DNA of 42,437 nucleotides. It comes from Sulfitobacter sp. (GTDB taxonomy: Bacteria; Pseudomonadota; Alphaproteobacteria; Rhodobacterales; Rhodobacteraceae). The first letter of the stretch is position 1; every line of letters starts with the position of its first letter. This document shows, piece after piece, positions 6,678 through 22,266 of this stretch. Location: the NCBI GenBank assembly GCA_024637305.1, contig JAGXFI010000014.1, forward strand, positions 1-42,437, written 5' to 3'. The notes below the pieces were generated by a model, which did no database searches, was not told the origin of the DNA, and saw only the letters and a list, made by a program, of their open reading frames with translations. The position numbers and the translations under genes are program-made.

Positions 6678-6712
6678 TTACAGAACTAGTTTTATGGATA
6701 TATTAATCCCAT
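6678..6712 (+). promoter_or_regulatory. Promoter/operator of the ArsR-family regulator
   Basis: TTTACA at 6678-6683 and TATTAA at 6701-6706 are spaced 17 bp and form a good sigma-70 promoter whose start point would fall at or next to the ATG at 6711. An imperfect inverted repeat at 6694-6712 (ATGGATATA against ATGGGATTA read from the other strand, 7 of 9 matching) covers the -10 and start codon and is a plausible ArsR operator. There is no Shine-Dalgarno sequence between it and the ATG. Confidence 0.5.
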
Positions 6713-7028
6713 GACAACAACCAGCCCCCCTGCCCGCGCCCTTGCCGCCCTTGGCCACGATGCTCGCCTGTCGATCTTTCGCACGCTCGTGAAAGCCGGG
6801 GATGAAGGCCTGCGGGTCGGCGAAATCGGTCTGCATCTTGGCCTCGCGCCTTCGACACTGGCCCATCACCTGTCCACGCTTGTCGATGCCGGCCTTGTGG
6901 TGCAGGAAAAACAGGGCCGCGAGGTCATAAACCGCGCCGATTACCCCGCGATGCACCGGGTTCTGGGTTTCCTGACCTCGGAATGCTGTGCCGGTGTGTC
7001 CATCCAACCTGCGGAGGATGCCGCATGA
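6711..7028 (+). CDS. ArsR/SmtB-family metal(loid)-responsive repressor
   Basis: A 105-residue winged-helix regulator. Residues about 8-28 (ARALAALGHDARLSIFRTL) and the recognition helix region LAPSTLAHHLSTLVDAGLV at about 45-63 are typical of ArsR. A vicinal cysteine pair, Cys92-Cys93 in ECCAG near the C-terminus, matches the NCC/ECC motif of alphaproteobacterial ArsR proteins that is thought to bind trivalent arsenic or related ions. The ATG fits the family N-terminus but lacks a ribosome site. It leads a cassette with a permease and an MFS transporter and probably represses both. The stop overlaps the start of a 20-codon frame. Confidence 0.88.
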   Translation: MTTTSPPARALAALGHDARLSIFRTLVKAGDEGLRVGEIGLHLGLAPSTLAHHLSTLVDAGLVVQEKQGREVINRADYPAMHRVLGFLTSECCAGVSIQPAEDAA

Positions 7029-7087
7029 CGCAGACGCGCCTTTCACTTTGCCTTAAAATAACTACAAATCCGGAGATTTGGACATGA
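7025..7087 (+). CDS. Possible 20-codon coupling ORF between regulator and permease
   Basis: ATG at 7025 overlaps the regulator stop (ATGA), and its own TGA at 7085-7087 overlaps the permease ATG at 7084 (ATGA again). The frame thus bridges the 55-nt gap exactly and could pass ribosomes from one gene to the next. The predicted peptide (starting MTQTRLSLCL) resembles nothing known to me. It may be chance. Confidence 0.25.
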   Translation: MTQTRLSLCLKITTNPEIWT

Positions 7088-8133
7088 CTGATACGACCCT
7101 TTCTTCATCAGGCCTTCGGTCATCGCTGAGCCTGTTGTGGCGCGACCAGCGGGTCTGGATCGCCTCGGCACTGATTCTTGCCGTATTGACGGTGTTCGAC
7201 AGCAATCAAGCCGCCGAAAGCGCAAGCTTTGCTGCGGGGGCGCTGCTGCGAACGGCTCCGTTTCTGATCCTGTCGATTGCCATCGCCGCCTGGGCTAATG
7301 CGACCGGAGCTGACAACCTGATCGCGAAGGCTTTCACAGGTGCGCCGTTGTTGATGATCGGGCTGGGCGCGTTGGCGGGCGGCATCTCGCCGTTCTGCTC
7401 TTGCGGGGTGATCCCGCTGATCGCGGCGCTTTTGGCGATGGGTGTACCCTTGTCGGCGGTCATGGCCTTCTGGCTCGCCTCCCCGATCATGGACCCGTCG
7501 ATGTTCGTCCTGACGGCGGGCATGCTGGATCTGGAATTCGCGGTGGCCAAGACGTTCGCGGCGATAGGCTTGGGTATTTTTGGCGGTACTGTTGTGCACC
7601 TTTTGATGCGTGGCGGAGCATTCGCCGATCCGCTGCGCGAGGGCATCGGCAACGGTGGCTGCGGCGGTTCCAAGATCCGCGCGCCCAAGCCTGTCGTCTG
7701 GCGCTTTTGGCAAGACGCCGAGCGTCGCACAAAGTTTGGCAAGACGGCGCTGAACACAACACTGTTCCTTGCCAAGTGGCTGACGCTTGCCTTCATCCTC
7801 GAAAGCCTGATGCTGGCGTGGATCCCCGCAGAAACCGTGACGGCGGCGTTAGGTGGCGAGGGGCTTATGCCGATTGCAACCGCAACGCTGGTCGGCGTAC
7901 CGGCCTATCTGAACGGTTATGCGGCGCTGCCTCTGGTGGGCGGGCTTATCGAACAGGGAATGGCTCCCGGTGCCGGCATGGCGTTCCTGGTGGCTGGTGG
8001 CGTCACCTCGATCCCAGCGGCGATGGCGGTCTGGGCACTGGCTAAACCGCAGGTTTTTGCGCTCTATATCGGCCTTTCGCTCAGCGGTGCCTTCGCCTCG
8101 GGGCTGCTGTTCCAACTGTGGACTCTGGCATGA
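7084..8133 (+). CDS. ArsP_1-type permease (DUF318), metal/metalloid efflux
   Basis: A 349-residue membrane protein with two blocks of hydrophobic helices joined by a cytoplasmic-type loop (about 180-225) that contains GNGGCGG. The hallmark SPFCSCGVIPL, with Cys105 and Cys107, identifies the ArsP_1/PF03773 permease family, which includes exporters of trivalent organoarsenicals and predicted permeases for other soft metals. Start ATG 7084 has GGAG at 7072-7075, 8 nt upstream; TTG 7078 is too close to it. Located behind an ArsR-type regulator with a Cys pair, it is probably the induced exporter. The exact ion is unknown; methylarsenite, arsenite or a divalent metal are possible. Confidence 0.82.
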   Translation: MTDTTLSSSGLRSSLSLLWRDQRVWIASALILAVLTVFDSNQAAESASFAAGALLRTAPFLILSIAIAAWANATGADNLIAKAFTGAPLLMIGLGALAGGISPFCSCGVIPLIAALLAMGVPLSAVMAFWLASPIMDPSMFVLTAGMLDLEFAVAKTFAAIGLGIFGGTVVHLLMRGGAFADPLREGIGNGGCGGSKIRAPKPVVWRFWQDAERRTKFGKTALNTTLFLAKWLTLAFILESLMLAWIPAETVTAALGGEGLMPIATATLVGVPAYLNGYAALPLVGGLIEQGMAPGAGMAFLVAGGVTSIPAAMAVWALAKPQVFALYIGLSLSGAFASGLLFQLWTLA

Positions 8134-8188
8134 GTGGGTCCGGCGAGGCACCCTGTTTCGTCGGCCCGCTTCAGCACAAGACAAATCT

Positions 8189-9349
8189 ATGACCCCAAAA
8201 CTTCTACCGGGGCGGCGCGGTTTGATCGTGGCCGCTCTTGGCTCGTCCCTGACCGTGAGTTGGGCGTCAAGCTATTACATCCCCGCCGTTCTCGCCGTAC
8301 CGATGGCGCACAGTTTCGGCTTGTCTCCAGTCTGGGTTTTCGGTGCCTTTTCCATGGCGATGGTGGTCTCGGCACTTGTCGGCCCATGGGCCGGAGCACG
8401 GATCGACGGCTTTGGCGGACGGGGCATTCTGATGCTGTCCAACGTCGTCTTTGCGGCAGGCCTTGGCCTGCTGGCCATCGCACCCACGCCCGCCATCCTG
8501 TTTGCAGGCTGGGCGATCATCGGGCTGGGAATGGGCATAGGTCTCTATGAGGCCGGGTTCGCCACGCTGGCTGGTATCTACGGCAAGGACGCGCGCGGCC
8601 CGATCACCGGCATCACGCTGATTGCGGGCTTTGCCAGCACCGTCGGCTGGCCCCTGTCCGGTGTGATGCTGGCAACATGGGGCTGGCGCGAAGCCTGCCT
8701 TGGCTGGGCCTTGATCCATCTGTGTATCGCGCTGCCCCTGAACGCCAGTCTGCCGAAAGGCACCAAAACAATCGCCAAGCCAGTCGCAACGGTCCAAGAC
8801 GGCCCCCCGCCATCGCGCCGGGCGCTGATATTGCTTGCGTTCGTCTTCGCGGCAACCTGGTTTAACTCTACCGCCATGGCCGCCCATCTGCCAGGCTTGC
8901 TGCAAGAGGCCGGGGCCAGCACTGCCATGGCCATCGCGGCGGGTGCCCTGATAGGTCCCGCACAAGTCGCCGCGCGGGTGTTGGAATTCGGCCTGCTGCG
9001 TCGCTTCCACCCGCTGGTCTCCACCCGCGTGGCCGCCGCCGCGCATCCTGTCGCCGCCGTGGCGCTGGTGACATTCGGCGGGCCTGCCGCGTATGTCTTT
9101 GCGGTTCTGCACGGGGCGGGCAACGGCATCCTGACCATCGCCAAAGGCACATTGCCGCTCGCCCTGTTCGGCGCGGCAGGCTACGGGCAACGTATCGGCT
9201 GGCTGAATGCCCCGGCCCGAATTCTCCAGGCAGCAGCCCCGCTGATTTTCGGTGCCGCCCTCACCGCATGGGGCTTGTCCGCGATCTGGCTGACAGCAGG
9301 GATCGGCCTCGCGGCCATGGCGGCGCTTCTGATGCTCAAGCGCGAATAG
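8189..9349 (+). CDS. Major facilitator superfamily transporter
   Basis: A 386-residue MFS protein with about 12 hydrophobic helices in two halves split by a charged loop near residues 190-210 (SLPKGTKTIAKP). The first loop carries GARIDGFGGRG, a variant of the MFS motif between helices 2 and 3. The frame is open far upstream, but ATG 8189 matches the natural start of the family; its ribosome site is weak. It follows the permease by 55 nt and is likely the third gene of the cassette, exporting an ion or a small organic compound. It differs from ArsJ contexts in that no GAPDH gene is present. Nothing recognisable lies in the 57 nt before the convergent E2 gene. Confidence 0.8.
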   Translation: MTPKLLPGRRGLIVAALGSSLTVSWASSYYIPAVLAVPMAHSFGLSPVWVFGAFSMAMVVSALVGPWAGARIDGFGGRGILMLSNVVFAAGLGLLAIAPTPAILFAGWAIIGLGMGIGLYEAGFATLAGIYGKDARGPITGITLIAGFASTVGWPLSGVMLATWGWREACLGWALIHLCIALPLNASLPKGTKTIAKPVATVQDGPPPSRRALILLAFVFAATWFNSTAMAAHLPGLLQEAGASTAMAIAAGALIGPAQVAARVLEFGLLRRFHPLVSTRVAAAAHPVAAVALVTFGGPAAYVFAVLHGAGNGILTIAKGTLPLALFGAAGYGQRIGWLNAPARILQAAAPLIFGAALTAWGLSAIWLTAGIGLAAMAALLMLKRE

Positions 9350-9406: not shown

Positions 9407-10297
9407 TCAGATAATCATCCGGCGCGGGTCGCTGAGGAGACCTGCGAGATGCGCGGTAAAGCGGGCCGCTTCGGCACCGTTGATGACCCGGTGATCATAG
9501 CTGAGACTGAGCGGCACCATCGGGACGGGCTGAAAGAGCTCACCGTCCCAGACAGGAACCATCTCGCTGCGGGTCAGGCCCAAGATAGCCACCTCTGGCG
9601 GATTGACGATGGGGGTAAAGGCCGTGCCGCCGATGCCGCCCAGGTTGCTGATGGACATCGACGCACCCCCCATCTCATCCGGCCCGACCTTGCGCGCCTG
9701 CGCGCGGGCGGCCAGATCGGTGATTTCTGCGCCTATCTGCCAAAGACCCTTACGGTCTGCATTGCGAATGACCGGCACCATCAGCCCATGCGGCGTATCC
9801 ACGGCAACGCCGATATGGACGAAATCCTTCAGGACCAGAGTTTTGCCATCCGGTGTCAACGAAGCGTTGAAACGTGGGAACGCCCGGAGCGCCCATGCCA
9901 GCGCCTTGACCTGAAAAGCCAGCGTCGTGAGCTTGATGCCCCGCGCTTGTGCCTCCGCCTTCAAAGCGCGCCGGAACTCTTCGATTTTCGAAACATCGGC
10001 GCGGTCATGATGTGTGACCTGCGGGATCATCGCATTGGCCGCCGCAAGATTGGCCGAAGCCACCTGCGCAAAACGGCTGAGAGGCTCTTTGGTCACGGGG
10101 CCAAATTGTGTGTGATCCACATCCCAAAAAGCCGAGTGACTGCTTTGGGAAGCAACCGCTGCGCCACCGCCCGAGAGATCCTCGCGGGCGATGGTGGTAC
10201 GGCCCAGATCATGGGCCAGTTTCTCAAGATCAATGCCTTTCTCGCTGGCGAGGACACGGACGGACGGGGCGGCGATAACTTCTGGCATACCGTTCAC
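9407..10297 (-). CDS. 2-oxoacid dehydrogenase E2 acyltransferase core, no lipoyl domain
   Basis: A 296-residue dihydrolipoamide acyltransferase lacking the usual N-terminal lipoyl domain. Residues 5-41 form a peripheral-subunit-binding domain (IAAPSVRVLASEKGIDL). Residues about 64-296 form a full catalytic domain resembling E2p, with NASLTPDG, IGVAVDTPHGLMVPVIR, SISNLGGIGGTAFTPI and the active site YDHRVING (His269, Asn273). Asn at this place is normal for E2p of the Azotobacter type. GTG 10297 overlaps the ALDH stop by 4 nt; ATG 10288 is the alternative. The lipoyl arms must come from another chain, most likely the product of 11741-13009 in the same operon. Transfers an acyl group from lipoamide to CoA. 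Confidence 0.88.
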   Translation of the reverse strand: MNGMPEVIAAPSVRVLASEKGIDLEKLAHDLGRTTIAREDLSGGGAAVASQSSHSAFWDVDHTQFGPVTKEPLSRFAQVASANLAAANAMIPQVTHHDRADVSKIEEFRRALKAEAQARGIKLTTLAFQVKALAWALRAFPRFNASLTPDGKTLVLKDFVHIGVAVDTPHGLMVPVIRNADRKGLWQIGAEITDLAARAQARKVGPDEMGGASMSISNLGGIGGTAFTPIVNPPEVAILGLTRSEMVPVWDGELFQPVPMVPLSLSYDHRVINGAEAARFTAHLAGLLSDPRRMII

Positions 10298-11724
10298 CAA
10301 CTCGCCGAGATGTATTGAGTCTCCATGAATTCGAGCATGCCCTCATGCCCGCCTTCACGGCCCAGACCGGATTGCTTGACACCGCCAAAGGGGGCCGCCG
10401 GATCGGACACAAGGCCACGGTTCAACCCGACCATGCCGTATTCCAGACGCTCGCAGACTTGCAACGCGCGTTTCATGTTTTCCGAAAAGACATAGGCGAC
10501 AAGCCCGTATTCGGTGTCATTGGCGCGTCGGATGACGTCCTGCTGATCTGTGAAGGTCTGGATCGCGGCGACGGGGCCAAAGATTTCATCATGCACGCAG
10601 TCGGAATTTTCCGCCACGTTCGACATCACCGTGGGGGGATAGAAAAAGCCCGTGCCATCGGGCGTGGCCCCGCCGCATTCGATCCTGGCTCCCTTGGCCA
10701 CGGCATCGGCCACAAAGGCCGCGACCTTGTCGCGGGTCTCAGCGTTGACAAGCGGCCCTACATCGACAGTCGGATCCGTACCATCCCCGACCTTGAGAGC
10801 GGACATGGCTGCAGTGAGCTTTGCGGTGAAGACTTCGGCCACGTCCGCGTGAACATAGATGCGGTTAGCGGCTGTGCAGGCTTCGCCCAGATTGCGCATC
10901 TTGGCCAGCATCGCCCCTTCGACGGCCACGTCGATATCTGCGTCTTCGAACACAATAAGCGGCGCATTACCGCCCAGTTCCATTGCCGGTTTCAAGACCT
11001 GGTCAGCGGCAGAACGCAGCAGCTTGCGGCCCACGCCGGTCGATCCGGTGAACGAGACGACGCGCACGCGCGGGTCGTGCAGCATATGATCCACCAGCGC
11101 GCCAGTGCGTTTGGAGGGCAGGACATTGACCAGCCCCTTGGGTACGCCCGCCTCTTCCAGCAGAGGCATCAACGCCAGCATGGTCAGAGGTGTCTCGGAA
11201 GCGGGCTTGATGATCACGGCGCAACCAGCAGCGAGCGCGGGCGCGATCTTGCGCGTACCCATCGCGGCGGGATAGTTCCACGGCGTAACCAGCACCGCGA
11301 GGCCGGCTGGTTTGTGTTGTACCAAGATGCGCGCGCCTGACGCCGGCGCACGGGTCATCATGCCATCCGCTCGCACGGCTTCTTCGGCAAACCATCGAAA
11401 GAACTCGGCAGCATATGTAGCCTCACCCATGGCATCGGCGCGGGCTTTACCATTTTCCAACGTGATCAGATGGGCGAAATGATCCAGCCGCGAGGTCATC
11501 AGCTCCCACGCGCGGCGCAGCACTTCCGAGCGGTGGCGCGGCGTTTGCGCGGCCCATTGTTTCATCGCGGCCTCAGCGGCATCAAGCGCCGCATCCGCAT
11601 CGGCAATTTCAGCAGAGGCGACAGAGGCGATGACCTCTTCGGTCGCGGGGTTCAGCACGTCAAACCGTTCGCCCGAGGCACCCTTGTGCCATGCGCCGTT
11701 AATGTAGAGATCGGTATGGTCCAT
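10294..11724 (-). CDS. NAD(P)-dependent aldehyde dehydrogenase (succinate-semialdehyde dehydrogenase-like)
   Basis: A 476-residue ALDH with TPWNYP at 148-152, FTGSTGVG at 225-232, general-base Glu249 in MELGGNAP and catalytic Cys283 in NLGEACTAANRIY. Overall layout matches the GabD/succinate-semialdehyde group. The residue before the Cys segment is GE rather than the usual GQ. The gene sits between the lipoyl-carrier gene and the E2-core gene, overlapping the latter by 4 nt. In an acetoin-type cleavage the free product is an aldehyde, and this enzyme is well placed to oxidise it. GGAG lies upstream of the ATG. Substrate unproven. Confidence 0.9.
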   Translation of the reverse strand: MDHTDLYINGAWHKGASGERFDVLNPATEEVIASVASAEIADADAALDAAEAAMKQWAAQTPRHRSEVLRRAWELMTSRLDHFAHLITLENGKARADAMGEATYAAEFFRWFAEEAVRADGMMTRAPASGARILVQHKPAGLAVLVTPWNYPAAMGTRKIAPALAAGCAVIIKPASETPLTMLALMPLLEEAGVPKGLVNVLPSKRTGALVDHMLHDPRVRVVSFTGSTGVGRKLLRSAADQVLKPAMELGGNAPLIVFEDADIDVAVEGAMLAKMRNLGEACTAANRIYVHADVAEVFTAKLTAAMSALKVGDGTDPTVDVGPLVNAETRDKVAAFVADAVAKGARIECGGATPDGTGFFYPPTVMSNVAENSDCVHDEIFGPVAAIQTFTDQQDVIRRANDTEYGLVAYVFSENMKRALQVCERLEYGMVGLNRGLVSDPAAPFGGVKQSGLGREGGHEGMLEFMETQYISASW

Positions 11725-11740
11725 GATCGGTCTCCGAAGA

Positions 11741-13009
11741 TCAGAGCAGGTGACGGAGCGGTTGCTCCATCCGGCCTGCGAAGTTGGAAAGAAGGGAGAT
11801 TGCGTCCTTTGCGTTCAGATGTCCCTTCGCGAATTCGAAAGTGATGGACAGTCCTTCGCCAAGCCGCGTGAGGGTCAAGGTCGGCACCTCTTCAGCCCCG
11901 ACCTGAACGGTCGTGATTGCCGTGAAGCGAAGATCGCGCAAGCGTATCTGCGGAGCGGCGTCCGTCGCCTCTGTCGCGCGGAGCCGGGTGCAAGCGGCAT
12001 AGGTTTTGACCTCGCCAGGGGTTTCAACGGCAACATTCACATCCTTGCCCATGCTGGCCGCACAGAACCCGGCGAGAATGGCCGATGGGTCGGGCAGATC
12101 AGCAGTCTCGCAAGCCCAGACAGAAAAGGCGGTAAAACCTTCGGTGGAAATCTCGGCCGTGAGGCAGCTTGCCGTCTGTGCGGTGCCCGTGCCGGATGCG
12201 GCCCCGCTCGGCAATGACTTGAGCAGTTCCAGATCCTTGACATGGAAGGGTTGGGGATAGCCCGCTTCGACCAGTCGTGCGAGGTCCAGCTGTTGCTCCC
12301 GCGCCAGACGCCGGAGTTTCGGAGAGGCGAGGATCCGCCGGTCTTTTGCAGGCACAGGTTTTGCTTGTGGGCGGGCCTGCTTGACAGTTGGGGGCGCGTC
12401 GGTATCGGGCTGTGCAGTTTTTGAAGCCACGGGAGCTGCAGAGGTTTTGCGCGTAACCGGATTGGCAGGCGCTTCGGCACTTATGATGGCAATGGTCATG
12501 CCGACCGGCACTTCTTCGCCTTCCCCGGCGAGCAAAGCCGCAAGAAAACCATCTGCACCGGCGTTGACTTCAACAGTGCTCTTGTCCGTTTCCACTTCGA
12601 ATAGAATATCATCGGTGGCGACGGGATCGCCTGCCGCCTTGTGCCACTTTACCAGCAGCCCGGTATCTTGCGCCATGCCGAGGGTCGGCATGATGACCTG
12701 CTTGCCCTCGGGAAGCGCATCTGTCGCAGCGGCGGCCCCGTCCTTCGCACCTTCTTGGGGCGCGCTTTCGGCGCTGTCCGAGATTTTGGCGATCACCTGA
12801 CCTACCGGCACATCCATGCCCTTGTTGGCACTCACGTCGGTCAGAAAACCGTCAGCCTGTGCTTCGACCTCAACCGTCGATTTGTCCGTCTCCACCTCAA
12901 AGAGAACGTCGCCTTTGGCCACGGCATCACCCGGCTGTTTGTGCCAGGCGACGATCTGTCCGGTCTCCTGCGCCATCCCCAGCGCGGGCATGATGACGTC
13001 AAGCGGCAT
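11741..13009 (-). CDS. Double-lipoyl E2-like protein with vestigial catalytic domain
   Basis: A 422-residue protein. Two lipoyl domains lie at about 1-77 and 103-178, each with the ETDKSTVEV lipoylation motif (Lys43, Lys143). A Pro/Ala/Lys-rich linker follows, then a peripheral-subunit-binding domain at about 225-262 (RILASPKLRRLAREQQLDL). The remaining 160 residues recall the end of an E2 catalytic domain (PTLTLTRLGEGLSITFEF and a closing helix LLSNFAGRMEQPLRHLL) but have no DHRxxxG active site and are too short. It is therefore probably non-catalytic, comparable in concept to E3-binding protein/protein X. It overlaps the E1 beta gene by 11 nt and has GGGGAG before its ATG. It likely supplies swinging arms to the separate E2 core. 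Confidence 0.85.
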   Translation of the reverse strand: MPLDVIMPALGMAQETGQIVAWHKQPGDAVAKGDVLFEVETDKSTVEVEAQADGFLTDVSANKGMDVPVGQVIAKISDSAESAPQEGAKDGAAAATDALPEGKQVIMPTLGMAQDTGLLVKWHKAAGDPVATDDILFEVETDKSTVEVNAGADGFLAALLAGEGEEVPVGMTIAIISAEAPANPVTRKTSAAPVASKTAQPDTDAPPTVKQARPQAKPVPAKDRRILASPKLRRLAREQQLDLARLVEAGYPQPFHVKDLELLKSLPSGAASGTGTAQTASCLTAEISTEGFTAFSVWACETADLPDPSAILAGFCAASMGKDVNVAVETPGEVKTYAACTRLRATEATDAAPQIRLRDLRFTAITTVQVGAEEVPTLTLTRLGEGLSITFEFAKGHLNAKDAISLLSNFAGRMEQPLRHLL

Positions 13010-13994
13010 CGATCATCTCCCCTCTGACAAGCAACCGCGCCTTTTCGGCTACGCCCTCGGGCGTGGGTACGGTGATATCTTCAAGGGCCGGGCTGAAGGG
13101 GATCGGCACATCCAACGCGCCCATCCGAAGCACCGGCGCGTCAAGATGATAAAAGGCCTTTTCGTTGATGCGGCTGGCAATTTCAGCGGTCACGCCAAAG
13201 CTCTGATGCCCCTCGTCCACAACGATCACCCGGCTGGTCTTGCGTGCCGAGGCAAGGAGCGCGGCCTCATCGAGAGGCACGATGGTACGCGGGTCGATCA
13301 CTTCGGCGCTAACGCCTTCGGCAGCAAGGATTTCAGCGGCTTTCTCACAGACCTGAACCATCGAGGATGTGCCGATCAGCGTGATATCCGTGCCCGCGCG
13401 TTTGATGTTGGCTTCACCGAAAGGGATCAGAAACTCTTCTTCCGGCACCGGAGCCTTGTCCTGATACATCAGCTTGTCTTCGAAAATCACCACCGGGTTG
13501 TTGTCGCGGATAGCGGTTTTCATCAGGCCTTTGGCCTCATAAGCCGATGAGGGCATGGCAACCTTGAGACCGGGAATATGCGCGACCAGCGCATGTAACG
13601 ATTGGCTGTGCTGTGCGGCAGATCGGCGTGTCGCACCCATATTGGTGCGCAGGACCAGCGGCACACTCAGTTTGCCACCTGACATGTAATGCGTCTTGGC
13701 AGCCTGATTGCACAGTTGATCCATGATCAAAAAAATGAAGTCGCCGAACATCAGATCCACGACCGGACGGCTGCCGGTCATCGCGGCCCCGACGGCAAGA
13801 CCCATAAAGCCGGGTTCGGAAATCGGCGTATCGACAACGCGGCCCGTGCCGAATTCTTCGACGAGGCCCGACAGTACCTTGAACGGCGTGCCCGCCTCGG
13901 CCACGTCTTCACCGATAATGAACACGGTCTCATCACGGCGCATTTCTTCGGCCAGTGCTTCGTTCACGGCTTGGGACAGGGTGATCTCTCTCAT
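12999..13994 (-). CDS. 2-oxoacid/acetoin dehydrogenase E1 component, beta subunit
   Basis: A 331-residue transketolase-like E1 beta. The N-terminus MREITLSQAVNEALAEEM, GEDVAEAGTPFKVLSGL, DTPISEPGFMGLAVGAA and the C-terminal domain with DPRTIVPLDEAALL are standard for pyruvate, branched-chain and acetoin dehydrogenases. It binds the TPP pyrophosphate site together with E1 alpha. No lipoyl domain is fused to it, unlike the housekeeping PDH E1 beta of many alphaproteobacteria. GAGGAG precedes the ATG. It lies 11 nt after the E1 alpha gene and overlaps the lipoyl-protein gene. Confidence 0.92.
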   Translation of the reverse strand: MREITLSQAVNEALAEEMRRDETVFIIGEDVAEAGTPFKVLSGLVEEFGTGRVVDTPISEPGFMGLAVGAAMTGSRPVVDLMFGDFIFLIMDQLCNQAAKTHYMSGGKLSVPLVLRTNMGATRRSAAQHSQSLHALVAHIPGLKVAMPSSAYEAKGLMKTAIRDNNPVVIFEDKLMYQDKAPVPEEEFLIPFGEANIKRAGTDITLIGTSSMVQVCEKAAEILAAEGVSAEVIDPRTIVPLDEAALLASARKTSRVIVVDEGHQSFGVTAEIASRINEKAFYHLDAPVLRMGALDVPIPFSPALEDITVPTPEGVAEKARLLVRGEMIDAA

Positions 13995-14005: not shown

Positions 14006-15001
14006 TCAGGCAAGCGCGTGTTTGATGTCGGCAAACACATGCATGTCAACCTCCGACACGTCGGGATATTTGGCGTCGAGCGCATATTTCACTGCCGCTT
14101 CGGCATCCGCTTCGATTTCGGCATTCAGCGCGTCGAGGTCTTCATCGGTTGCGAGACCCTCGCTGACGAGATAGCCGCGGAATCGAATAATCGGGTCGCG
14201 GTTGTCCTTCCAATCCTTCTCTTCCTCCTTGGACCGGTAGTATTCACGGTTGATGTCGCCGACATGGTGGCCGTGATAGCGGTAGGTCATCAGTTCCATG
14301 AAAAACGGGCCTTCGCCTTTCCGGGCGCGGGCGACCAGATCGGTGGTCAACGCGTTGACGGCCAGAACGTCCTGCCCGTCAACCTGATGCGCTTCGATTC
14401 CGAAGGCCTCTGCGCGCGCGGTGATGGAGCCTGCGGCGATTTCCTCGGTCTTGGTATATTCGGAGTAACCGTTGTTTTCGCAGGCGTAGATCACCGGCAG
14501 CTTCCACAGCGCAGCCATGTTCATGACCTCGTACATCAACCCCTGCGCCGTGGCACCGTCGCCAAAAAAGCAGACGGCCACATCATCCTTGCGCAGCAGT
14601 TTGGAGGTGAAAGCCGCACCGGTCGCAATCCCCATCGAGCCGCCGACAATAGCGTTGGCCCCAAGGTTTCCGTTCGACTGGTCGGCAATGTGCATCGATC
14701 CGCCCTTGCCGCGACAGTATCCTTCTTCCTTGCCCAGAAGTTCGCAGAACATCTCCTTGAATTCGGCCCCCTTGGCGACACAATGGCCGTGGCCACGGTG
14801 AGTCGAGGTAATCTTGTCGCGGGTTTCCAGCGCTTCGCAAATGCCTACGGCCACGGCTTCTTCGCCGGAATACATATGGGTCAGCCCCGGCATCTTGGCG
14901 GACAGGTACAACTGGTTGGCGTTGTCCTCGAATGTGCGGATGCGGACCATCTGGCGGTACATGCGCAGGTAGTCTTCCGAATTGGTTTTCTTCTTGGCCA
15001 T
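14006..15001 (-). CDS. 2-oxoacid/acetoin dehydrogenase E1 component, alpha subunit
   Basis: A 331-residue TPP-binding E1 alpha. The GDG-NN TPP motif is visible as GDGATAQG at 147-154 and ENNGY at 175-179; THRGHGHC at 67-74 and RGKGGSMH at 97-104 are the substrate-channel signatures, and YRYHGHHVGD marks the mobile loop. Similarity in pattern is closest to AcoA-type acetoin dehydrogenases, which split acyloins into acyl-CoA plus aldehyde, but pyruvate-like substrates cannot be excluded. GGGGAG precedes the ATG. It is separated from the M24 gene by an 87-nt stretch with a hairpin. Confidence 0.9.
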   Translation of the reverse strand: MAKKKTNSEDYLRMYRQMVRIRTFEDNANQLYLSAKMPGLTHMYSGEEAVAVGICEALETRDKITSTHRGHGHCVAKGAEFKEMFCELLGKEEGYCRGKGGSMHIADQSNGNLGANAIVGGSMGIATGAAFTSKLLRKDDVAVCFFGDGATAQGLMYEVMNMAALWKLPVIYACENNGYSEYTKTEEIAAGSITARAEAFGIEAHQVDGQDVLAVNALTTDLVARARKGEGPFFMELMTYRYHGHHVGDINREYYRSKEEEKDWKDNRDPIIRFRGYLVSEGLATDEDLDALNAEIEADAEAAVKYALDAKYPDVSEVDMHVFADIKHALA

Positions 15002-15088: not shown

Positions 15089-16399
15089 CTAGTAACGGTT
15101 GGCGATCGGCAGTTCTTCTGCGGGAAAGAGGCTGATCACCTCGCAACCGGTATCGGTCACCACGACTTCTTCTTCGATCCGCGCGGCGGAATAGCCATCT
15201 GCCGCCGGGCAATATGTTTCCAGCGCAAAGACCATACCCGTCTGGATCTCCATCGGATTTTCGAAGCTGACCGCCCGACTGATAATCGGCCGCTCGTGCA
15301 GCGCCAGACCAAGCCCGTGGCCGAATTGCAGACCGAATGCCGACAATTCATCAGGAAAGCCAAGGCTCTCGGCTGTCGGCCAAACTTCTGCCACCTTGTC
15401 CGTCGATACACCCGGCTTGATCCGTTCAATCGCCAGATCCAGCCATTCGCGAGCCTTGATATAGGCATCATTCTGGACCGGTGTCGCGCGACCGATGTTG
15501 AACGTGCGATAATAGCACGTCCTATACCCTTGATAACTTTGCAGAATATCAAAAAACGCCTGATCACCTGGGCGGAAATACCGATCGGTGAAGTTATGCG
15601 GGTGCGGATTGCAGCGTTCGCCGGAAATGGCGTTGATTGCCTCGACATCGTCGCTGCCCATTTCATAAAGCATCTTGTTGGATAGCGCGACGATGTCGTT
15701 TTCACGTATGCCCGGCTTCAGGTTTTCGTAGATCATGTGGTAGACGCCATCGACCATCGAGGCGGCCTGGGTCAGAAGCTGGATTTCGTCCCAGTTCTTT
15801 ATCTCCCGTGCGCTGAGCATGATCTGCTGACCGTCAACCACATTCAATCCCGCTTCCTGCAAGGCGTGGAACATGGCGGTTTCGGCATAATCCACGCCGA
15901 CAGGCATGTCCTTCATTCCGGCATCTTCGATCAGGCCAGCAATTTCTTCGGCGTATTTCTTCATCAGCCCAAAGCTGGGCGGAATGGTGCCGCGCATGCC
16001 CACCACACCGGCGCGGCAGTGATCCGGCACCAGCCAGTCAGAATATTTCCTGTGATGTACGGCGGCCGAGCCAAAGTCCCAGACATATGGCGCATCATCG
16101 CCCGTCAACAGGCAGAAGCGGCACATCTTGTCGCGCTCCCATTCGCCAATCTTGGTGGCGGAAACGTAGCGGATATTGTTCACATCGAACAGCAGCAGCG
16201 TACCGCAATCACTGTTCTGCAGGGCTTGGCGGGTGCGGCCCAGCCGGTAGCGGCGCAGGCGGTCGTGATCGACGCGCTTTTCGAAATCAACGCTGGTGTG
16301 ACCCCAGGCAGGGATTTTCCCCTCCCAACGCCAGTTGGGTTCAATGTCCTGCGGGGTCAGCAGGTTGGGCATAAGGGCCGAGGCCGGGCGGTCTGACAT
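15089..16399 (-). CDS. Creatinase/M24-fold hydrolase with altered metal site
   Basis: A 436-residue pita-bread-fold protein: an N-terminal creatinase domain (about 45-200, with FDVNNIRYVS) and a C-terminal M24 domain. Of the five usual metal ligands, Asp284, His361 (GHGLGLALHE), Glu394 and Glu409 are present, but the second Asp, 11 residues after the first, is Cys295 (GYRTCYYRTF). Creatinase, which works without metals, also differs at these sites. Relatives include Xaa-Pro aminopeptidase, creatinase, ectoine hydrolase and the DMSP lyase DddP; none can be assigned. AGGAG precedes the ATG. It lies inside the E1/E2 operon, so it probably prepares or releases the substrate of that pathway. Confidence 0.82.
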   Translation of the reverse strand: MSDRPASALMPNLLTPQDIEPNWRWEGKIPAWGHTSVDFEKRVDHDRLRRYRLGRTRQALQNSDCGTLLLFDVNNIRYVSATKIGEWERDKMCRFCLLTGDDAPYVWDFGSAAVHHRKYSDWLVPDHCRAGVVGMRGTIPPSFGLMKKYAEEIAGLIEDAGMKDMPVGVDYAETAMFHALQEAGLNVVDGQQIMLSAREIKNWDEIQLLTQAASMVDGVYHMIYENLKPGIRENDIVALSNKMLYEMGSDDVEAINAISGERCNPHPHNFTDRYFRPGDQAFFDILQSYQGYRTCYYRTFNIGRATPVQNDAYIKAREWLDLAIERIKPGVSTDKVAEVWPTAESLGFPDELSAFGLQFGHGLGLALHERPIISRAVSFENPMEIQTGMVFALETYCPAADGYSAARIEEEVVVTDTGCEVISLFPAEELPIANRY

Positions 16400-16462: not shown

Positions 16463-17272
16463 CTACTGGATGCACCAGCCGCCATCGATGTGGATCATCT
16501 GACCGGTCATGTAGTCGCTGTCGTTACTGGCAAGGAAAGAGGCGGTCCCGACGATGTCATTGGGATAGGACACGCGTTTGATCTGAAGCGCATCGCGCAC
16601 GATGTCCTCATAGGCCTGCCCCTCTTTTTCCTTGAATCCAATGTCGACCAGATCCTTGTCGAGCTGTTCCCAAAGCGGGGTTACGACGACACCGGGGGCA
16701 TAGCCGTTGACGGTAATACCGTGCTCGGCCAGCCCGATGGCACCGCAATGGGTAAGCGCAAGACACCCATATTTGGAGGTGCAATAGACCGTCACATCCA
16801 CAAGCGGCTTGCGCGACGCGATGGAGCCGACGTTGATCAGCTTGTAGGGGTGATCCTCCATCGGGCCCTGGGCGATCATCTGGCGGGCGGTCTCCTGCAT
16901 GCCCAGCCACATCGCCTTGGTGTTGACGTTCATGATCAAGTCCCAGTTGTCTTCGTCGATATCCATGAAGAAACGGGGCTTGTTCAGACCCGCGTTGAAC
17001 AGGCCGACGTTGATGGACCCGAACGCGTCGACGGTTGCGGCGACGGCGGCGGCGTTGTCTGCGCGTTTGGTGACATCCATCCTGACGGCAATCGCCTTGC
17101 CATTTCCAGCAGCGGCAATCTGGTCGGCCAGCTTTTGCGCCCCATCCAGATCAAGATCGCCCAAACAGACGTTGGCCCCCTGGGCCGCAAAGTTTTCGGC
17201 ATTGGCCGCACCCATGCCTCGGGCGGCACCGGTGATGAGAATATTCTTACCCTTGAGGCGGTTGGGGTCCAT
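16463..17272 (-). CDS. SDR oxidoreductase, butanediol/polyol-dehydrogenase-like
   Basis: A 269-residue classical SDR: TGAARGMG at 14-21, Asp at the end of strand 2 (GDLDLD, NAD preference), FNAG at 92-95 in place of NNAG, Ser150, and YCTSK with Tyr163 and Lys167. The segment after the active site (GITVNGYAPGVVVTPLWEQLDKDL) and the ending SDYMTGQMIHIDGG resemble meso-2,3-butanediol and sorbitol dehydrogenases. It is clearly related to the SDR at 20405-21202: both carry NAGxNKP, EDNW, GMQExARQMIAQG and SDYMTGQ. It starts 18 nt after the regulator gene, so it is cotranscribed with it. Confidence 0.9.
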   Translation of the reverse strand: MDPNRLKGKNILITGAARGMGAANAENFAAQGANVCLGDLDLDGAQKLADQIAAAGNGKAIAVRMDVTKRADNAAAVAATVDAFGSINVGLFNAGLNKPRFFMDIDEDNWDLIMNVNTKAMWLGMQETARQMIAQGPMEDHPYKLINVGSIASRKPLVDVTVYCTSKYGCLALTHCGAIGLAEHGITVNGYAPGVVVTPLWEQLDKDLVDIGFKEKEGQAYEDIVRDALQIKRVSYPNDIVGTASFLASNDSDYMTGQMIHIDGGWCIQ

Positions 17273-17290: not shown

Positions 17291-19132
17291 TCACGTAATT
17301 CCGGATGTCTTGATGACTGCGTCCGCTCTCTGCTGGGCGCGGCGCAGCGCTTCGCGCGGAGGAATGATCCCGCGCAGCATGTCATGGAACTCCTCTCCGC
17401 AGATCTGGATGATCTCGCTTATTTCGGGCACCGGTGGGCGTGGCCAGAATTGCAATTCGTCGCGCCAGGACATGGCATCGACCGCTTCGAAGATCGGCGA
17501 CAGCCGGCGCACATCGGGATCCGCGCCTACAGAATAGCGCGGATTGGTCCGGCTGCCGTTCTGCACGTAAAGCTTTTGCGCTTCAGGCGAGGTGAAAACC
17601 AGCAGCGCCTCCACCGCAGCCTCCAGACGGTCCGGCGCAAGATTGGCGGGAATCCCAAGGATATAACCCCCTACCGGCGCGATCTGGCTGGTGCCCGGTC
17701 CGGCGGGATGTGGCAGATAGCCGGTCTTACCGTGAGCCGGTGAGGCTTCGTCAAGTTCGAAATAGGGCGCGAGCAGCGTGTACCCATAGGCCATCGCGAT
17801 CCGGCCTGCCGCATAGGGGCGCACACGTTCATACCAGGACATCGACAGAATTTCCGGCGGAGAATACTGCAGCAATTCCAGCAAGAATTCCGCAGCCCGC
17901 AAGCCTGCTTCTGTGTCGATGGTCACCCGGTAGTTCCGATCCGCCAGATGCTGCGTGTCGAAGCCCCCCGCATGGGCAGGCAGATCAAGGATCGGTTGCC
18001 CGAAATCGGCCAGTGTCATCAACACCGTATGGCCAAGCGCTGTGCCGCGCGCGGCATTCCACGCGATGCCGTGCTGCCCGCGCTGGGGGTCGTGCAATGC
18101 CTTTGCCGCGGTCAGAAGCGCGTCGGTGGTCGCGGGCGGCTCAAGACCGGCCTGCGCAAAAAGGTCGGTACGATAGAACAGCAGCTCCGGCGTCGTCTGG
18201 GCCGGCACCCCGTATGGCTTGCCGCCCCAATGTGCCGCTTGCCAGCCTGCAGTGTGAAAATCCGCCGGGTCAAGGCGGGCCGTGTCCATTGCTTCGTCCA
18301 GCGGCATCAGAATGCCTTGCTCTGCGAAATCACCCACCCAGGGAAGGTCAACAGCGACAATGTCATATCGGCTGGTCTTGCGGGCGGCATTGCGCAGGGA
18401 TTCCTCGCGCAGCCTGTCGATCGAAAAAGCGCGCTGATGGATCTGGGTGCCAACGGCCTGTTCAAATTGCCGCTTGAGGTTCTCCATGACCATGAACGTC
18501 GGATCGCCATGCACCAGAACCCGCAGGCCCCCGGCCAGCTTGAGAGGCTCTGCCAGAACCTGAAGGGGTGGGATGGATTTGGCGTTCAGGTAGGAGCCAC
18601 CAAAGTAGTAGTCTTCCGTTTCGGTCTGGGTTTCGGCCCCGCCAAAACGCCCCAGGGCGAGCCGCCGGACGCGGCTGGCCAACTGAGACCATTGTTCCAT
18701 CAGTGTTTCGCTGGGATGCAGGGAATAGCTCTTTCCGGTCTTGGTACGGGGGCGCTGTTCGATCAGCCCTGCAGCGACCATTTCCTTGAGCCGGCGATTG
18801 GCCGTCGCATAGGGCGCATGGCTCGCCCCGATCAGCGATGTCGCTGTAATGACGCGCCCTTCGAAATGGCCCCGCACCAGCAGCAGCGTCATTCGCAGGT
18901 TGGGATTCGGCGCGGACAGATCAATCATGTCCTCAAGCTCGTCCCCCAGATCTTCGAGAAAGCCGATGATCTGCAGCATCTCGGTCTTTGCCTTCGGCGG
19001 TATGAACCGGGTCATATTGTCAGTGTTCATCGCATTCATCGGAGTGGCTCGTGCCTTTTCTGGTCCGGACATCAAAGACGCTGCCCGTGAGGTCTTGGAT
19101 TTTCTCGATCTGGATGTTTCTGAATTGCTCAT
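17291..19132 (-). CDS. Cytoplasmic regulator: winged helix fused to MalE-like solute-binding domain
   Basis: A 613-residue two-part protein. Residues about 50-140 form a MarR/DtxR-like winged helix: a helix with GFLEDLGDELEDMIDL, then RVITATSLIGASHAPYATANRRLKEMVAAGLIEQRP and a wing ending KSYSLHPS. Residues about 203-605 form a family-1 extracellular solute-binding fold (DIVAVDLPWVGDFAEQGILMPLDE, KPYGVPAQTTPELLFYRTDLFAQAGLEPP, PVGGYILGIPANL, ALLVFTSPEAQKLYV). There is no signal peptide. ATG 19132 was chosen because GGAGGA sits 7 nt upstream; the open frame to 19267 would add a hydrophobic stretch that the ribosome site argues against. First gene of the catabolic operon and divergent from the importer, so it probably senses the imported ligand or a metabolite. 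SgrR is a distant precedent. Confidence 0.8.
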   Translation of the reverse strand: MSNSETSRSRKSKTSRAASLMSGPEKARATPMNAMNTDNMTRFIPPKAKTEMLQIIGFLEDLGDELEDMIDLSAPNPNLRMTLLLVRGHFEGRVITATSLIGASHAPYATANRRLKEMVAAGLIEQRPRTKTGKSYSLHPSETLMEQWSQLASRVRRLALGRFGGAETQTETEDYYFGGSYLNAKSIPPLQVLAEPLKLAGGLRVLVHGDPTFMVMENLKRQFEQAVGTQIHQRAFSIDRLREESLRNAARKTSRYDIVAVDLPWVGDFAEQGILMPLDEAMDTARLDPADFHTAGWQAAHWGGKPYGVPAQTTPELLFYRTDLFAQAGLEPPATTDALLTAAKALHDPQRGQHGIAWNAARGTALGHTVLMTLADFGQPILDLPAHAGGFDTQHLADRNYRVTIDTEAGLRAAEFLLELLQYSPPEILSMSWYERVRPYAAGRIAMAYGYTLLAPYFELDEASPAHGKTGYLPHPAGPGTSQIAPVGGYILGIPANLAPDRLEAAVEALLVFTSPEAQKLYVQNGSRTNPRYSVGADPDVRRLSPIFEAVDAMSWRDELQFWPRPPVPEISEIIQICGEEFHDMLRGIIPPREALRRAQQRADAVIKTSGIT

Positions 19133-19163
19133 TGCGCGATCCTCCCTCATCATGCTCAACGGA

Positions 19164-19222
19164 ATGGTCAAAACGTATCGCCAAAATATCCAAAACGAAT
19201 AAATAAATATCCATAACGGATA
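19164..19222. promoter_or_regulatory. Tandem operator candidates in the divergent intergenic region
   Basis: AATATCCAAAACGAATA at 19185-19201 and AATATCCATAACGGATA at 19206-19222 agree at 15 of 17 positions and start 21 bp apart, two helical turns. The second contains a perfect inverted repeat ATATCC-N5-GGATAT. A weaker third copy of the core (AAAACGTAT at 19170-19178) lies 22 bp before the second core (AAAACGAAT, 19192). They sit just upstream of the regulator start and 137 nt before the importer gene, where an autoregulator controlling both operons would bind. Part of the ATATCCAA core recurs on the minus strand at 20375-20382. Confidence 0.6.
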
Positions 19223-19273
19223 TCTTGTAAGGGGATTACCCAGCGGCAACTGCGCATTCTGGTCCAAGTCATC

Positions 19274-19358: not shown

Positions 19359-20318
19359 ATGAAACTTCACACCATTCTTTCGGCCACTGCTGCGACTGCG
19401 GCCTTGACCGTCGCAGGTGCCGCCAGCGCCGAGACGATGCGCATCGGCATCACGCAGAACAACGTGGGCGTCGACAGCTACCAGACCACCTATGAACAGG
19501 CCTTCATCGCGGCCGCACAAGCCAACCCAAACGTCGAGGTCGTCGTTCTGGATGCGGGCGGCGACGTGGCGCGGCAGATCGCGCAGATGGAAGACCTGAT
19601 TCAGCAGGAAGTGGACGCCATCATCATCTGGCCGACCAACGGCGAAGCGGTGATCCCTGCCGTGCGCAAGGCCGCCCAGGCAGACATTCCTGTGGTCGTG
19701 ACGAATTCAAACATTGCCGAAGCCGGTTTTGACTTCGTCGCGTCTTTCTCTGGCCCTGACAATATCACGCAAGGCTCGCGCTCTGCCGAAATCATGTGCG
19801 ACCGGTTCAAGGATCTCGGAATCGAAAATGAAGCGCGTGTCGTGCAGATTTCCGGCCAGCCCGGCTACACCACCGCGATCGAGCGCGCGAAAGGCTTCGA
19901 GGACCGCCTCCCGGAAGTTTGCCCAAACGTCACGCTGGTTGAATCGCAACCCGGCGACTGGAATCGCGAAAAGTCCCAGCAGGTCATGGAGGCATTTCTT
20001 GTCAAATATGACGACATTGACGGCGTCTATGCCGGGGATGACAACATGGGTGTCGGCGCGTTGAATGCCGCCAATGCGGCGGGCCGCACAGAGGGGATCA
20101 CCTTCGTCGGTGCCACCAATTTCGGCGTCGGCTATGACGCCATGGCGCGCGGAGAATACTGGGGCTCGATCTATCAATCTCCCGTTGACGATGCAGAGGC
20201 GGCCTTGAAGACGGCGATTGATCTGCTCAACGGTGAGGAACTGCCGTTCCTGAACTACTTCGATACGCCGAAGATCACGCAAGACAACATGGGCGATTTC
20301 ACCAAGCCAGTCTTCTGA
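19359..20318 (+). CDS. RbsB-type ABC transporter substrate-binding protein
   Basis: A 319-residue periplasmic binding protein of the ribose/galactose (type 1) group. A Sec signal peptide is seen at residues 1-24 (cleavage near GAASA-ETMRIG). Then follow MRIGITQNNVGVDSYQTTYEQAF, a DAGGDVARQIAQMEDLIQQEVDAIIIWPTNGEAV block typical of sugar binders, and GVYAGDDNMGVGALNA near the hinge. GGGAGGAA lies well placed before the ATG. It is the first gene of an operon with an SDR, two permeases and an ATPase. Ligands of this group include pentoses, polyols and autoinducer-2; the ligand here is unknown but should match the catabolic operon. Confidence 0.92.
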   Translation: MKLHTILSATAATAALTVAGAASAETMRIGITQNNVGVDSYQTTYEQAFIAAAQANPNVEVVVLDAGGDVARQIAQMEDLIQQEVDAIIIWPTNGEAVIPAVRKAAQADIPVVVTNSNIAEAGFDFVASFSGPDNITQGSRSAEIMCDRFKDLGIENEARVVQISGQPGYTTAIERAKGFEDRLPEVCPNVTLVESQPGDWNREKSQQVMEAFLVKYDDIDGVYAGDDNMGVGALNAANAAGRTEGITFVGATNFGVGYDAMARGEYWGSIYQSPVDDAEAALKTAIDLLNGEELPFLNYFDTPKITQDNMGDFTKPVF

Positions 20319-20331
20319 TCTCCTCCCTGAT

Positions 20332-20358
20332 CTGCGGGGCGGCTTCGGCCTCCCGCAG
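20332..20358 (+). other. Hairpin with TTCG tetraloop after the binding-protein gene
   Basis: Arms CTGCGGG and CCCGCAG pair, continued by a GU pair, one bulge and GGC-TTCG-GCC. It lies 14 nt after the stop, with no T tract. Such structures often stabilise the 5' part of the mRNA so that the binding protein is made in excess. Confidence 0.7.
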
Positions 20359-20404
20359 GTTTCGGGGTTCATCCTTGGATATATAGTAATTAGAGAGTGC
20401 ACCA

Positions 20405-21202
20405 ATGGGCCGTGTCTCTGGTCGATCCTGCATCGTGACGGGTGCCGCACAAGGTATAGGGCGCGCGATTGGCGAAGCGCTGTTGGCCGAAGGGGCCGAT
20501 GTCTGTTTTGCCGATATCAACGTCGAAAAGGCGGCCGAGGTCGCCGAATGGAACCGCCGTCACATCAACGGCAGCGGAGCAAAAGTGACCCATGCCCATG
20601 TAGATGTCACCGACCGCGCCGCCGTGCGGGCGATGATCGGACATACGGTGTCCGTCTTTGGGAAGCTGGATGTGAAATTCAATAACGCGGGCGTCAACAA
20701 GCCGATGAACTTTCTCGACGTGACTGAAGATAACTGGAATTTCATCATGGGGATCAACGGGCTGGGGTGCATGATCGGCATGCAGGAAGCCGCCCGCCAG
20801 ATGATCGCGCAAGGGACCGGCGGCAAAATCATCAACACGGCTTCGGTCGCAAGCCGTCAGGGATTTGATAACGTCGCACCCTATTGTGCGAGCAAATGGG
20901 CCGTCGTGTCATTGACGCAGTCAGGCGCGCGCGATCTGGCCAAGCACAACATTACTGTAACGGGCTTTGCGCCCGGCGTGGTACAGACGGAAATGTGGGA
21001 ACAGGTGGATCAGGATCTGATGGACATCGGCGCTGCAACCCGCCCCGGACAGGCGATGGAGGAGTTTTCCTCCGAAATCCTGCGCGGCCGTGTCGCCAAA
21101 CCACAAGATATCACTGGCACCACAACCTTTCTGGCAGCCGCAGAAAGCGACTACATGACCGGACAGATCGTGATGATCGACGGAGGAATGACGCTGGTCT
21201 GA
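20405..21202 (+). CDS. SDR oxidoreductase, meso-butanediol/acetoin reductase-like
   Basis: A 265-residue classical SDR with TGAAQGIG at 12-19, an acidic strand-2 end (ADIN), NNAG at 93-96, and YCASK with Tyr160 and Lys164. HNITVTGFAPGVVQTEMWEQVDQDL and SDYMTGQIVMIDGGM recall 2,3-butanediol dehydrogenases and polyol dehydrogenases. It is a paralogue of the SDR at 16463-17272 on the opposite arm. It lies within the importer operon, between the binding-protein and permease genes, flanked by two hairpins, so its product probably acts on the imported compound. GAGAG is the only ribosome-site-like sequence. Likely NAD-dependent. Confidence 0.9.
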   Translation: MGRVSGRSCIVTGAAQGIGRAIGEALLAEGADVCFADINVEKAAEVAEWNRRHINGSGAKVTHAHVDVTDRAAVRAMIGHTVSVFGKLDVKFNNAGVNKPMNFLDVTEDNWNFIMGINGLGCMIGMQEAARQMIAQGTGGKIINTASVASRQGFDNVAPYCASKWAVVSLTQSGARDLAKHNITVTGFAPGVVQTEMWEQVDQDLMDIGAATRPGQAMEEFSSEILRGRVAKPQDITGTTTFLAAAESDYMTGQIVMIDGGMTLV

Positions 21203-21206
21203 CCCG

Positions 21207-21227
21207 AACGGCCAAGCCTTGGCCGTT
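21207..21227 (+). other. Intercistronic hairpin between SDR and permease
   Basis: AACGGCCAA at 21207-21215 and TTGGCCGTT at 21219-21227 form a perfect 9-bp stem with a GCC loop, 4 nt after the SDR stop. No T tract follows and the next ribosome site is intact. Confidence 0.65.
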
Positions 21228-21280
21228 GCGCGGATCACTTGCAAAACGGGCCCGCAAAATGGTGCTCGAGGGAGGGAACG

Positions 21281-22255: not shown

Positions 22256-22266
22256 GGGGCGGGATC

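Follow-up and report, generated by a model that had tools for sequence, protein, structure and literature searches.

Canonical 2-oxo acid dehydrogenase complexes carry the swinging arm as a covalent part of their catalytic core. The knob of the knob-hole contact of E2 cores is the C-terminus of the chain. According to excerpts of PMC11700594, neighbouring E2 trimers are joined by this contact, which is hydrophobic, and mammalian E2p carries its own lipoyl domain. E3BP, or protein X (human, N. crassa), stands beside a catalytic E2 and consists of one or more lipoyl domains, a subunit-binding domain and a non-catalytic E2-derived tail; in N. crassa the domain by which it binds the E2 core is itself an E2 domain in reduced form, and E3BP is called a eukaryotic gene (excerpts of PMC10156792), the tail being assigned "no known catalytic function" (excerpt of PMC8146983). 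The E2 acyltransferase domain of actinobacterial OdhA/KGD, part of a hybrid PDH-ODH complex, in turn, uses the lipoyl groups of another protein, AceF (excerpts of PMC7568260, PMC10415282 and PMC8146983); in OdhA this domain is fused to E1o, and the donor is the acetyltransferase E2 of pyruvate dehydrogenase (PDH).

Lipoyl supply in trans (OdhA/AceF) and a dead lipoyl-bearing core subunit (E3BP) are each known, and their bacterial combination was not met in the literature searched, where no bacterial E3BP-like protein or split E2 is named among the matches listed; the available part of PMC5322387 concerns human PDH kinases and mentions the lipoyl domain as part of the assay conditions. An earlier note on this DNA knew of no described bacterial example of the arrangement reported below, which holds for the exact gene set among the matches listed but not for lipoyl supply in trans, also used by actinobacterial OdhA in the excerpts cited.

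Domain content of ARM and CORE

The window, a stretch of 42,437 nucleotides from Sulfitobacter sp., encodes on its reverse strand the two proteins considered here. In ARM (11741–13009, 422 aa), two lipoyl domains are followed by a subunit-binding domain and then by a tail modelled as a reduced, catalytically dead E2 fold, whereas CORE (9407–10300, 297 aa from a TTG start) is an E2 acyltransferase without a lipoyl domain. Between them lies an aldehyde dehydrogenase gene (ALDH, SSADH-like; 10294–11724, reverse strand), overlapping CORE by 7 bases, and ARM overlaps by 11 bases the gene for E1 beta (12999–13994), which is followed on the same strand by that for the ThDP-binding E1 alpha (14006–15001). 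The earlier note had placed both genes in one operon with E1 alpha/beta and an aldehyde dehydrogenase, an organization that is conserved in relatives.

Two stretches of ARM matched PF00364 in the Pfam search. Lipoyl domain 1 covers residues 5–76 (12782–12997), with K43 as predicted lipoyl lysine, and its E40-T41-D42-K43 is invariant in 29/29 rows of alignment A1, which holds the window and 28 of the 30 family loci (the broken L047 and L062, below the score limit, were left out). Lipoyl domain 2 covers residues ~104–176 (12482–12700, limits from A1), with K143 as predicted lipoyl lysine; within the operon, predicted lipoyl-lysine sites occur only on ARM. The peripheral subunit-binding domain (PSBD; residues 225–264, 12218–12337) was assigned from a PF02817 (E3_binding) match at residues 226–246, of 16.0 bits against a cut-off of 23.7, and from a profile comparison of ARM with CORE in which only the PSBDs aligned (E 1.2e-5); in a relative, the ARM of locus L061, the match rises to 24.9 bits, above the cut-off. 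Pfam and the relatives thus agree with the earlier description of this protein as having two lipoyl domains, a subunit-binding domain and no DHRxxxG, the subunit-binding match being weak. With a PSBD below the cut-off in the window and above it in L061, the make-up of ARM (lipoyl, PSBD and non-catalytic E2-fold tail) is that of E3BP/protein X, from which ARM differs in being bacterial and in lying in what we read as a catabolic operon.

CORE begins with a PSBD of short loop (residues ~8–43, 10172–10279; PF02817, end from alignment), whose match at residues 8–28 reaches 22.1 bits, just under the cut-off of 23.7, and 25.8 bits, above it, in the CORE of relative L064. The catalytic domain (PF00198, residues 69–296, 9413–10096) matches profile positions 4–231 of 232 with 262.6 bits, and alignment to the dihydrolipoyl transacetylase 1eaa shows a full-length C-terminus. 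Its active site, numbered from the TTG, comprises D269-H270-R271 and N274; an ATG four codons further on is a possible alternative start. The DHRxxNG motif is kept in 79/79 CORE relatives from the named loci (best 80 of 151 relatives). No lipoyl family was found in CORE by Pfam, in contrast to mammalian E2p with its own lipoyl domain, and no E[TS]DK lipoyl site was found in any of those 79 relatives, again from the best 80 of 151. A lipoyl domain concealed upstream by a frameshift or sequencing error, which the earlier note had raised for the region near 10297, was also considered and rejected, because the ALDH gene ends in that region, and the relatives agree. The same note had described 9407–10297 as a subunit-binding domain and a full core without a lipoyl domain, which stands, with limits corrected to 9407–10300 and its His269/Asn273 to His270/Asn274.

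The best NCBIfam model for CORE is TIGR01348. Ten of the E2s closest to CORE outside the cluster were examined in the family sample, seven of which (45–47% by BLAST over the core) have an lpd-like gene adjacent. Each of these seven Rhodobacteraceae proteins has E[TS]DK sites of its own, one or two in number, whereas CORE carries none and has a shorter PSBD loop; from the TIGR01348 match of CORE, we take them to be AceF-type PDH E2s. OdhA has an E2 acyltransferase domain dependent on lipoyl groups of another protein, as CORE would be, but here CORE and the two E1 subunits, alpha and beta, each have their own ORF, with no E2-E1 fusion of the OdhA/KGD kind in CORE, which is a free-standing PSBD-acyltransferase, and the presumed donor, ARM, appears catalytically dead.

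The C-terminal domain of ARM (residues 275–422, 11744–12187) gave no PF00198 match at E ≤ 1 in the Pfam search of ARM. Neither DHR nor a His at the matching place counted from the C-terminus was found in any of the 80 tails of alignment A4, built on the named loci (best 80 of 151 relatives; window plus 79, L129 having been missed by the motif search; alignment A3 has 30 rows). The AlphaFold model of the tail with the PSBD has a pLDDT of 92.3, and the Foldseek matches listed, 50 out of 91 with E ≤ 0.001, consist almost wholly of CAT-type acetyltransferases and E2 cores, with 7r5m, an E3BP-E2 structure from N. crassa, in third place; the TM-scores are only about 0.5. Because the model matches E2/CAT-fold acyltransferases, the tail is, as modelled, a reduced E2 core domain, read as dead from the absent His; the full catalytic domain with an active-site His that would have contradicted the earlier note was not found by Pfam, the His is present in 0/80 tails (best 80 of 151), and the structure prediction it proposed gave an E2 fold. 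An unrelated domain was ruled out by model and Foldseek. Taken alone, the sequence link between tail and E2 is weak: the tail profile against mixed E2 cores gave E 0.0028 and a score of 26.2 in HHalign (against no more than 18.5 when the columns were shuffled 40 times, and 12.6 when reversed), with a probability of 11%, and of 2.6% against CORE alone. The tail is variable among relatives, and its sequence is too divergent to link it by descent with eukaryotic E3BP. Its PLRHLL end is found in 73/80 rows of A4, a figure that is biased because this C-terminal motif was one of the three retrieval patterns; in A1, whose rows were chosen without the motif, the P at −6 is kept in 28/29.

Occurrence of the pair in relatives

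Two sets were analysed, a family sample of 248 genomes with 30 family loci and the named loci, the best 80 of 151 relatives. CORE orthologs (at least 61% identity) were found in 28/248 genomes of the family sample, and ARM in all 28, that of G102 being cut by a contig end. CORE lies downstream of ARM on the same strand, in the order ARM-(ALDH)-CORE, in 27/30 family loci and in 79/80 named loci, the one miss (L113) being a contig end; divergent forms are under-sampled in the latter figure because these are the best 80 of 151. The CORE alignment comprised 25 rows (the window and 24 of the 27 CORE loci, without L044, L047 and L051), and L113 is missing from the 79-row CORE set. Counting the window, and with nine genomes common to both sets, the distinct loci in which ARM and CORE are neighbours number 98; the earlier note would have fallen had the two never co-occurred in homologues, and they do.

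The distance from ARM to CORE is 1432–1474 bases, corresponding to the ALDH gene, in the 79 named loci (best 80 of 151), except for three Marinobacter loci, which have 9–10 bases and no ALDH. A fused ARM-CORE gene was not found, the best matches being separate ORFs in 79/79 named loci (best 80 of 151). Besides Rhodobacterales, records titled as Roseibium/Stappia, Chelativorans or Marinobacter carry the pair.

A putative two-subunit E2 and alternative readings

The pair probably belongs to a dedicated ThDP-dependent dehydrogenase complex, the E2 of which would be divided between ARM, providing the arms, and CORE, providing catalysis and scaffold. E1 alpha/beta would cleave a 2-oxo acid or alpha-hydroxyketone and load the acyl onto the lipoyl-lysines of ARM, from which CORE would pass it to CoA. 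The dead tail would tether the arms to the CORE scaffold, the role that the protein X/E3BP tail has in mitochondria, and the two subunit-binding domains may share out the binding of E1 and E3. Some relatives have E3 within the cluster, with a dihydrolipoyl dehydrogenase gene after CORE in P. inhibens and in 17/80 named loci (best 80 of 151), and would otherwise presumably come from elsewhere in the genome.

The chances seem evenly balanced that this is a bacterial counterpart of protein X, with all lipoyl arms borne by a dead subunit that binds the core, a catalytic subunit devoid of them, an obligate heteromeric E2, an origin independent of mitochondrial E3BP, and an ARM that, where CORE is lacking, rides on another E2 core. 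Non-catalytic lipoyl-bearing core subunits have so far been described as eukaryotic, and a split that occurs naturally and widely in bacteria would make it possible to test the contribution of the covalent arm-core link, as well as the counts of arms, E1 and E3 per core and the sharing of arms between cores.

ARM and CORE might instead form separate oligomers, the acyl-lipoyl ARM docking at the active sites of CORE in the way that OdhA is served by the lipoyl domains of AceF. We consider this unlikely. Judging from Foldseek, an E2-fold tail might trimerise alone, and mutual information between ARM tail and CORE showed no excess over the control pairs (ARM-ALDH, ARM-E1, ARM-M24, CORE-ALDH, CORE-E1b and CORE-M24) across the 93 loci where all six genes are present; nine of these loci repeat a genome that both sets contain. 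However, the hydrophobic C-terminus of ARM, the part that forms the knob in E2 cores, is kept, with the retrieval bias noted above for the best 80 of 151, and that of CORE is full-length. The complementary domains of the earlier note are borne out and the two genes co-occur strongly, and gene order and the PLRHLL end would fit an ARM bound to an E2 core; the mixed core that the note suggests gains no support from the mutual information, nor from the absence of CORE in 6/35 family genomes having ARM.

Five of these six genomes have a one-lipoyl ARM, and the sixth only a broken one. They bear on a still more doubtful reading, that of ARM as an E3BP-like adaptor in the housekeeping PDH E2 core, with CORE as an accessory or replaceable acyltransferase. 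CORE-less clusters retain ARM and E1, and some of them ALDH as well; two PF00198 cores each are present in G184 and G013, and a single one in G158, in no case CORE; and in four loci without CORE the ARM tail ends in NPLLQLL, NPILQLL, HPVRHLL and EPLLLLL, respectively, which resembles ordinary E2s. In such genomes ARM would need another acyltransferase. In addition, L206 keeps only a 71-residue CORE remnant after ALDH, so CORE loss is tolerated. All this would suit an adaptor, but CORE adjoins ARM in the 27/30 and 79/80 loci (the latter from the best 80 of 151), and 28/28 CORE orthologs of the family sample occur with ARM.

Finally, a decayed or non-functional split, in which one of the two genes would be a degenerating duplicate and they would share no role, is highly improbable: the tail is variable and lacks an active site, and G013 and G090 hold broken pieces, but the 98 side-by-side loci have open frames in nearly all cases, CORE motifs are intact in 79/79 (best 80 of 151), and the taxa extend beyond Rhodobacterales.

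Neighbouring genes

Beyond E1 alpha, the reverse strand encodes a further member of the operon, a DddP/creatinase-like protein of the M24 family (15089–16399), an SDR dehydrogenase similar to acetoin reductase/polyol dehydrogenase (16463–17272) and an SBP_bac_1 protein whose N-terminus weakly matches an HTH (17291–19267), possibly an effector-binding regulator. A ribose-type ABC importer (substrate-binding protein, two permeases and ATPase) is encoded divergently on the forward strand (19359–24776), with a second SDR inside its region (20405–21202), and many of the named loci (best 80 of 151 relatives) also have importer genes next to them.

The ~330 aa E1 alpha/beta, the acetoin-reductase-like SDRs and the nearby aldehyde dehydrogenase presumably liken the operon to the acetoin dehydrogenase complex (AcoABC), from which it differs in having the E2 on two proteins. 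Acetoin E2 and acetoin reductase models of NCBIfam matched below their cut-offs, as did the PDH model that is the best match of E1 alpha. Neither plasmid annotation nor the literature search named a substrate pathway, and our best reading is an uncharacterised operon of sugar or polyol catabolism, which the split marks in marine Rhodobacterales. The operon is plasmid-borne in some marine Rhodobacterales strains.

Operon organisation and co-occurrence of ARM and CORE

The minus-strand operon of the window encodes, in order, an SBP-type protein, a short-chain dehydrogenase (SDR), an M24 protein, E1 alpha, E1 beta, the lipoyl protein ARM (11741–13009), an aldehyde dehydrogenase (ALDH, 10294–11724) and the acyltransferase CORE (9407–10300). 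Spacing is tight, with a widest gap of 87 bases and overlaps of 11 bases (E1 beta/ARM) and 7 bases (ALDH/CORE), and genes for an ABC importer of the ribose type diverge from it, together with that of a second SDR. ARM shows an ETDK site in each of its two lipoyl domains and a degenerate subunit-binding domain (PSBD); its tail matches no Pfam family. CORE contains a PSBD and a complete acyltransferase domain, and its nearest solved structure is the transacetylase core 1eaa of Azotobacter vinelandii. The earlier note, which had proposed an E2 split over these two proteins, had its coordinates and domains right and its residue numbering off by one.

Of 248 genomes from this family, 31 carry a match to the ARM tail, its own genome counted, and CORE followed ALDH in 27 of the 30 other loci, including L047 (CORE split over two frames) and L051 (only its start seen before the contig end). 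In a wider scan of one genome per species, CORE lay downstream of ARM in 79 of the 80 relatives kept (best 80 of 151), the sole exception being a contig end; ALDH stood between them in all but three loci, all of Marinobacter, in which CORE directly adjoins ARM. The co-occurrence on which the earlier reading depended was borne out in 98 distinct loci, window included, with nine genomes common to both sets: the split is real and conserved. CORE orthologs (at least 61% identity) were detected in 28 of the 248 family genomes, all with ARM, counting G102, in which ARM is truncated at the contig end. The tail is sparse in wider samples that include the own genus and family (5/385 class genomes, 7/398 phylum genomes).

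The cluster also lies on plasmids of Phaeobacter, Tritonibacter, Marinovum, Pacificitalea and Rhodobacteraceae bacterium SC52, a distribution that suggests transfer between strains. The gene table of Phaeobacter inhibens plasmid pP92_e labels ARM as "biotin/lipoyl-containing protein" and CORE as "2-oxo acid dehydrogenase subunit E2".

In the same operon, the 658-aa SBP_bac_1 protein (17291–19267) is possibly an intracellular sugar-sensing regulator; its N-terminus weakly matches a winged helix (E 0.025, below cut-off). The adjoining region 6711–9349 is perhaps an arsenic locus. By eye, it begins with ORFs for a short ArsR-like HTH protein (6711) and a permease-like membrane protein (7078); they are followed by an MFS protein whose nearest model is that of the arsenite exporter ArsK (209 bits against a cut-off of 400).

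The ARM tail and a possible origin of CORE

Structure prediction of the ARM C-terminus (AlphaFold, mean pLDDT 92.3, PSBD included) confidently gave an E2-type fold with a shorter middle. In line with the earlier claim of a tail without the active site, 0 of 80 ARM tails have His at that position. The best 50 of 91 Foldseek matches comprised E2 cores and CAT-type acetyltransferases, along with some related domains, e.g., an NRPS epimerisation domain, with the fungal E3BP–E2 structure 7r5m in third place; TM-scores among the matches listed were moderate (0.42–0.54), perhaps partly due to the PSBD in the query. In a profile comparison, the last part of ARM aligned over 35 residues with the strand and helix of the E2 active site, and 73 of the 80 tails retain PLRHLL at the C-terminus. 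Two sources describe a hydrophobic knob-hole contact joining neighbouring trimers in mammalian PDH cores (PMC11700594) and an N. crassa core-binding domain that is a reduced E2 domain and binds the core (PMC10156792).

The architecture of ARM is like that of protein X/E3BP; we do not assign it to E3BP, a class that also calls for E3 binding, core binding and common descent. Among bacteria, the closest precedent is OdhA: according to PMC7568260, PMC10415282 and PMC8146983, it depends on lipoyl groups supplied in trans by AceF. No description of the ARM–CORE pair was met in the literature searched, with most subscription journals outside its scope and the broadest search confined to best matches.

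CORE is an E2 by its catalytic domain, yet falls outside the one-chain definition. After its orthologs, identity among the next ten matches in family genomes falls to 47–50%, and the seven examined are lipoyl-bearing E2s, each adjoining an lpd-like gene; CORE thus looks like an ordinary E2 of this type that lost its lipoyl domain. A Streptomyces sp. YIM 121038 plasmid (L218:13380–16398) carries a cluster of M24, ALDH and fused E1 alpha/beta genes. Its E2-like protein of 264 aa has a PSBD and PF00198, no lipoyl domain, and DPR replacing DHR.

Predicted mixed core, proposed pathway and M24 protein

A mixed ARM–CORE core remains a prediction, and a coevolution test between both proteins was negative. 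CORE is missing from 6 of 35 family genomes with ARM (31 from the tail search, and G102, G201, G090 and G014 through a search with M24). Of these six, G184, G158, G201 and G014 have an ARM with a single lipoyl domain, G090 has such an ARM beside a 71-residue CORE remnant, and G013 has broken pieces only; class member G590 has a one-lipoyl ARM, CORE not being found in the fetched stretch, and L086 and L115 combine a one-lipoyl ARM with CORE. Since G184, G013 and G158 hold few E2 cores (two, two and one), ARM in these genomes may rely on the core of a housekeeping E2. A 71-aa remnant of the CORE C-terminus (11523–11735) lies in L206 between ALDH and ORFs that by eye resemble molybdenum-hydroxylase subunits, and similar ORFs follow ALDH in L063, where CORE is absent.

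In the proposed mechanism, E1 would load acyl groups onto the lipoyl-lysines of ARM, CORE would transfer them to CoA, and E3 would reoxidise the lipoyl arm. No dihydrolipoyl dehydrogenase gene lies beside CORE in the window; one follows CORE in Phaeobacter inhibens pP92_e and in 17 of the 80 relatives' loci (best 80 of 151), which supports a complete complex. The importer, the two acetoin-reductase-like SDRs and ALDH suggest a polyol or sugar substrate whose oxidation would yield a hydroxyketone or 2-oxo acid; an aldehyde by-product would be oxidised as well.

In five further family genomes (L207–L211), SDR–M24 is kept and followed by two other SDRs, apparently an alternative downstream route, with importer genes in view in four and E1, ARM, ALDH and CORE not found in the fetched stretch; the dehydrogenase module therefore looks exchangeable within the pathway. 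The M24 protein (15089–16399, minus strand) is DddP/creatinase-like, scoring 110.8 bits against the DddP model (cut-off 600), and its best solved relatives are 4s01/4rzy, "Peptidase M24" (74 bits). All 70 orthologs checked carry GYR[TS]CYYRT where 4s01 reads VDISRT; because the Asp of the latter, a metal ligand, is replaced, the protein is unlikely to be a normal dinuclear metallopeptidase.
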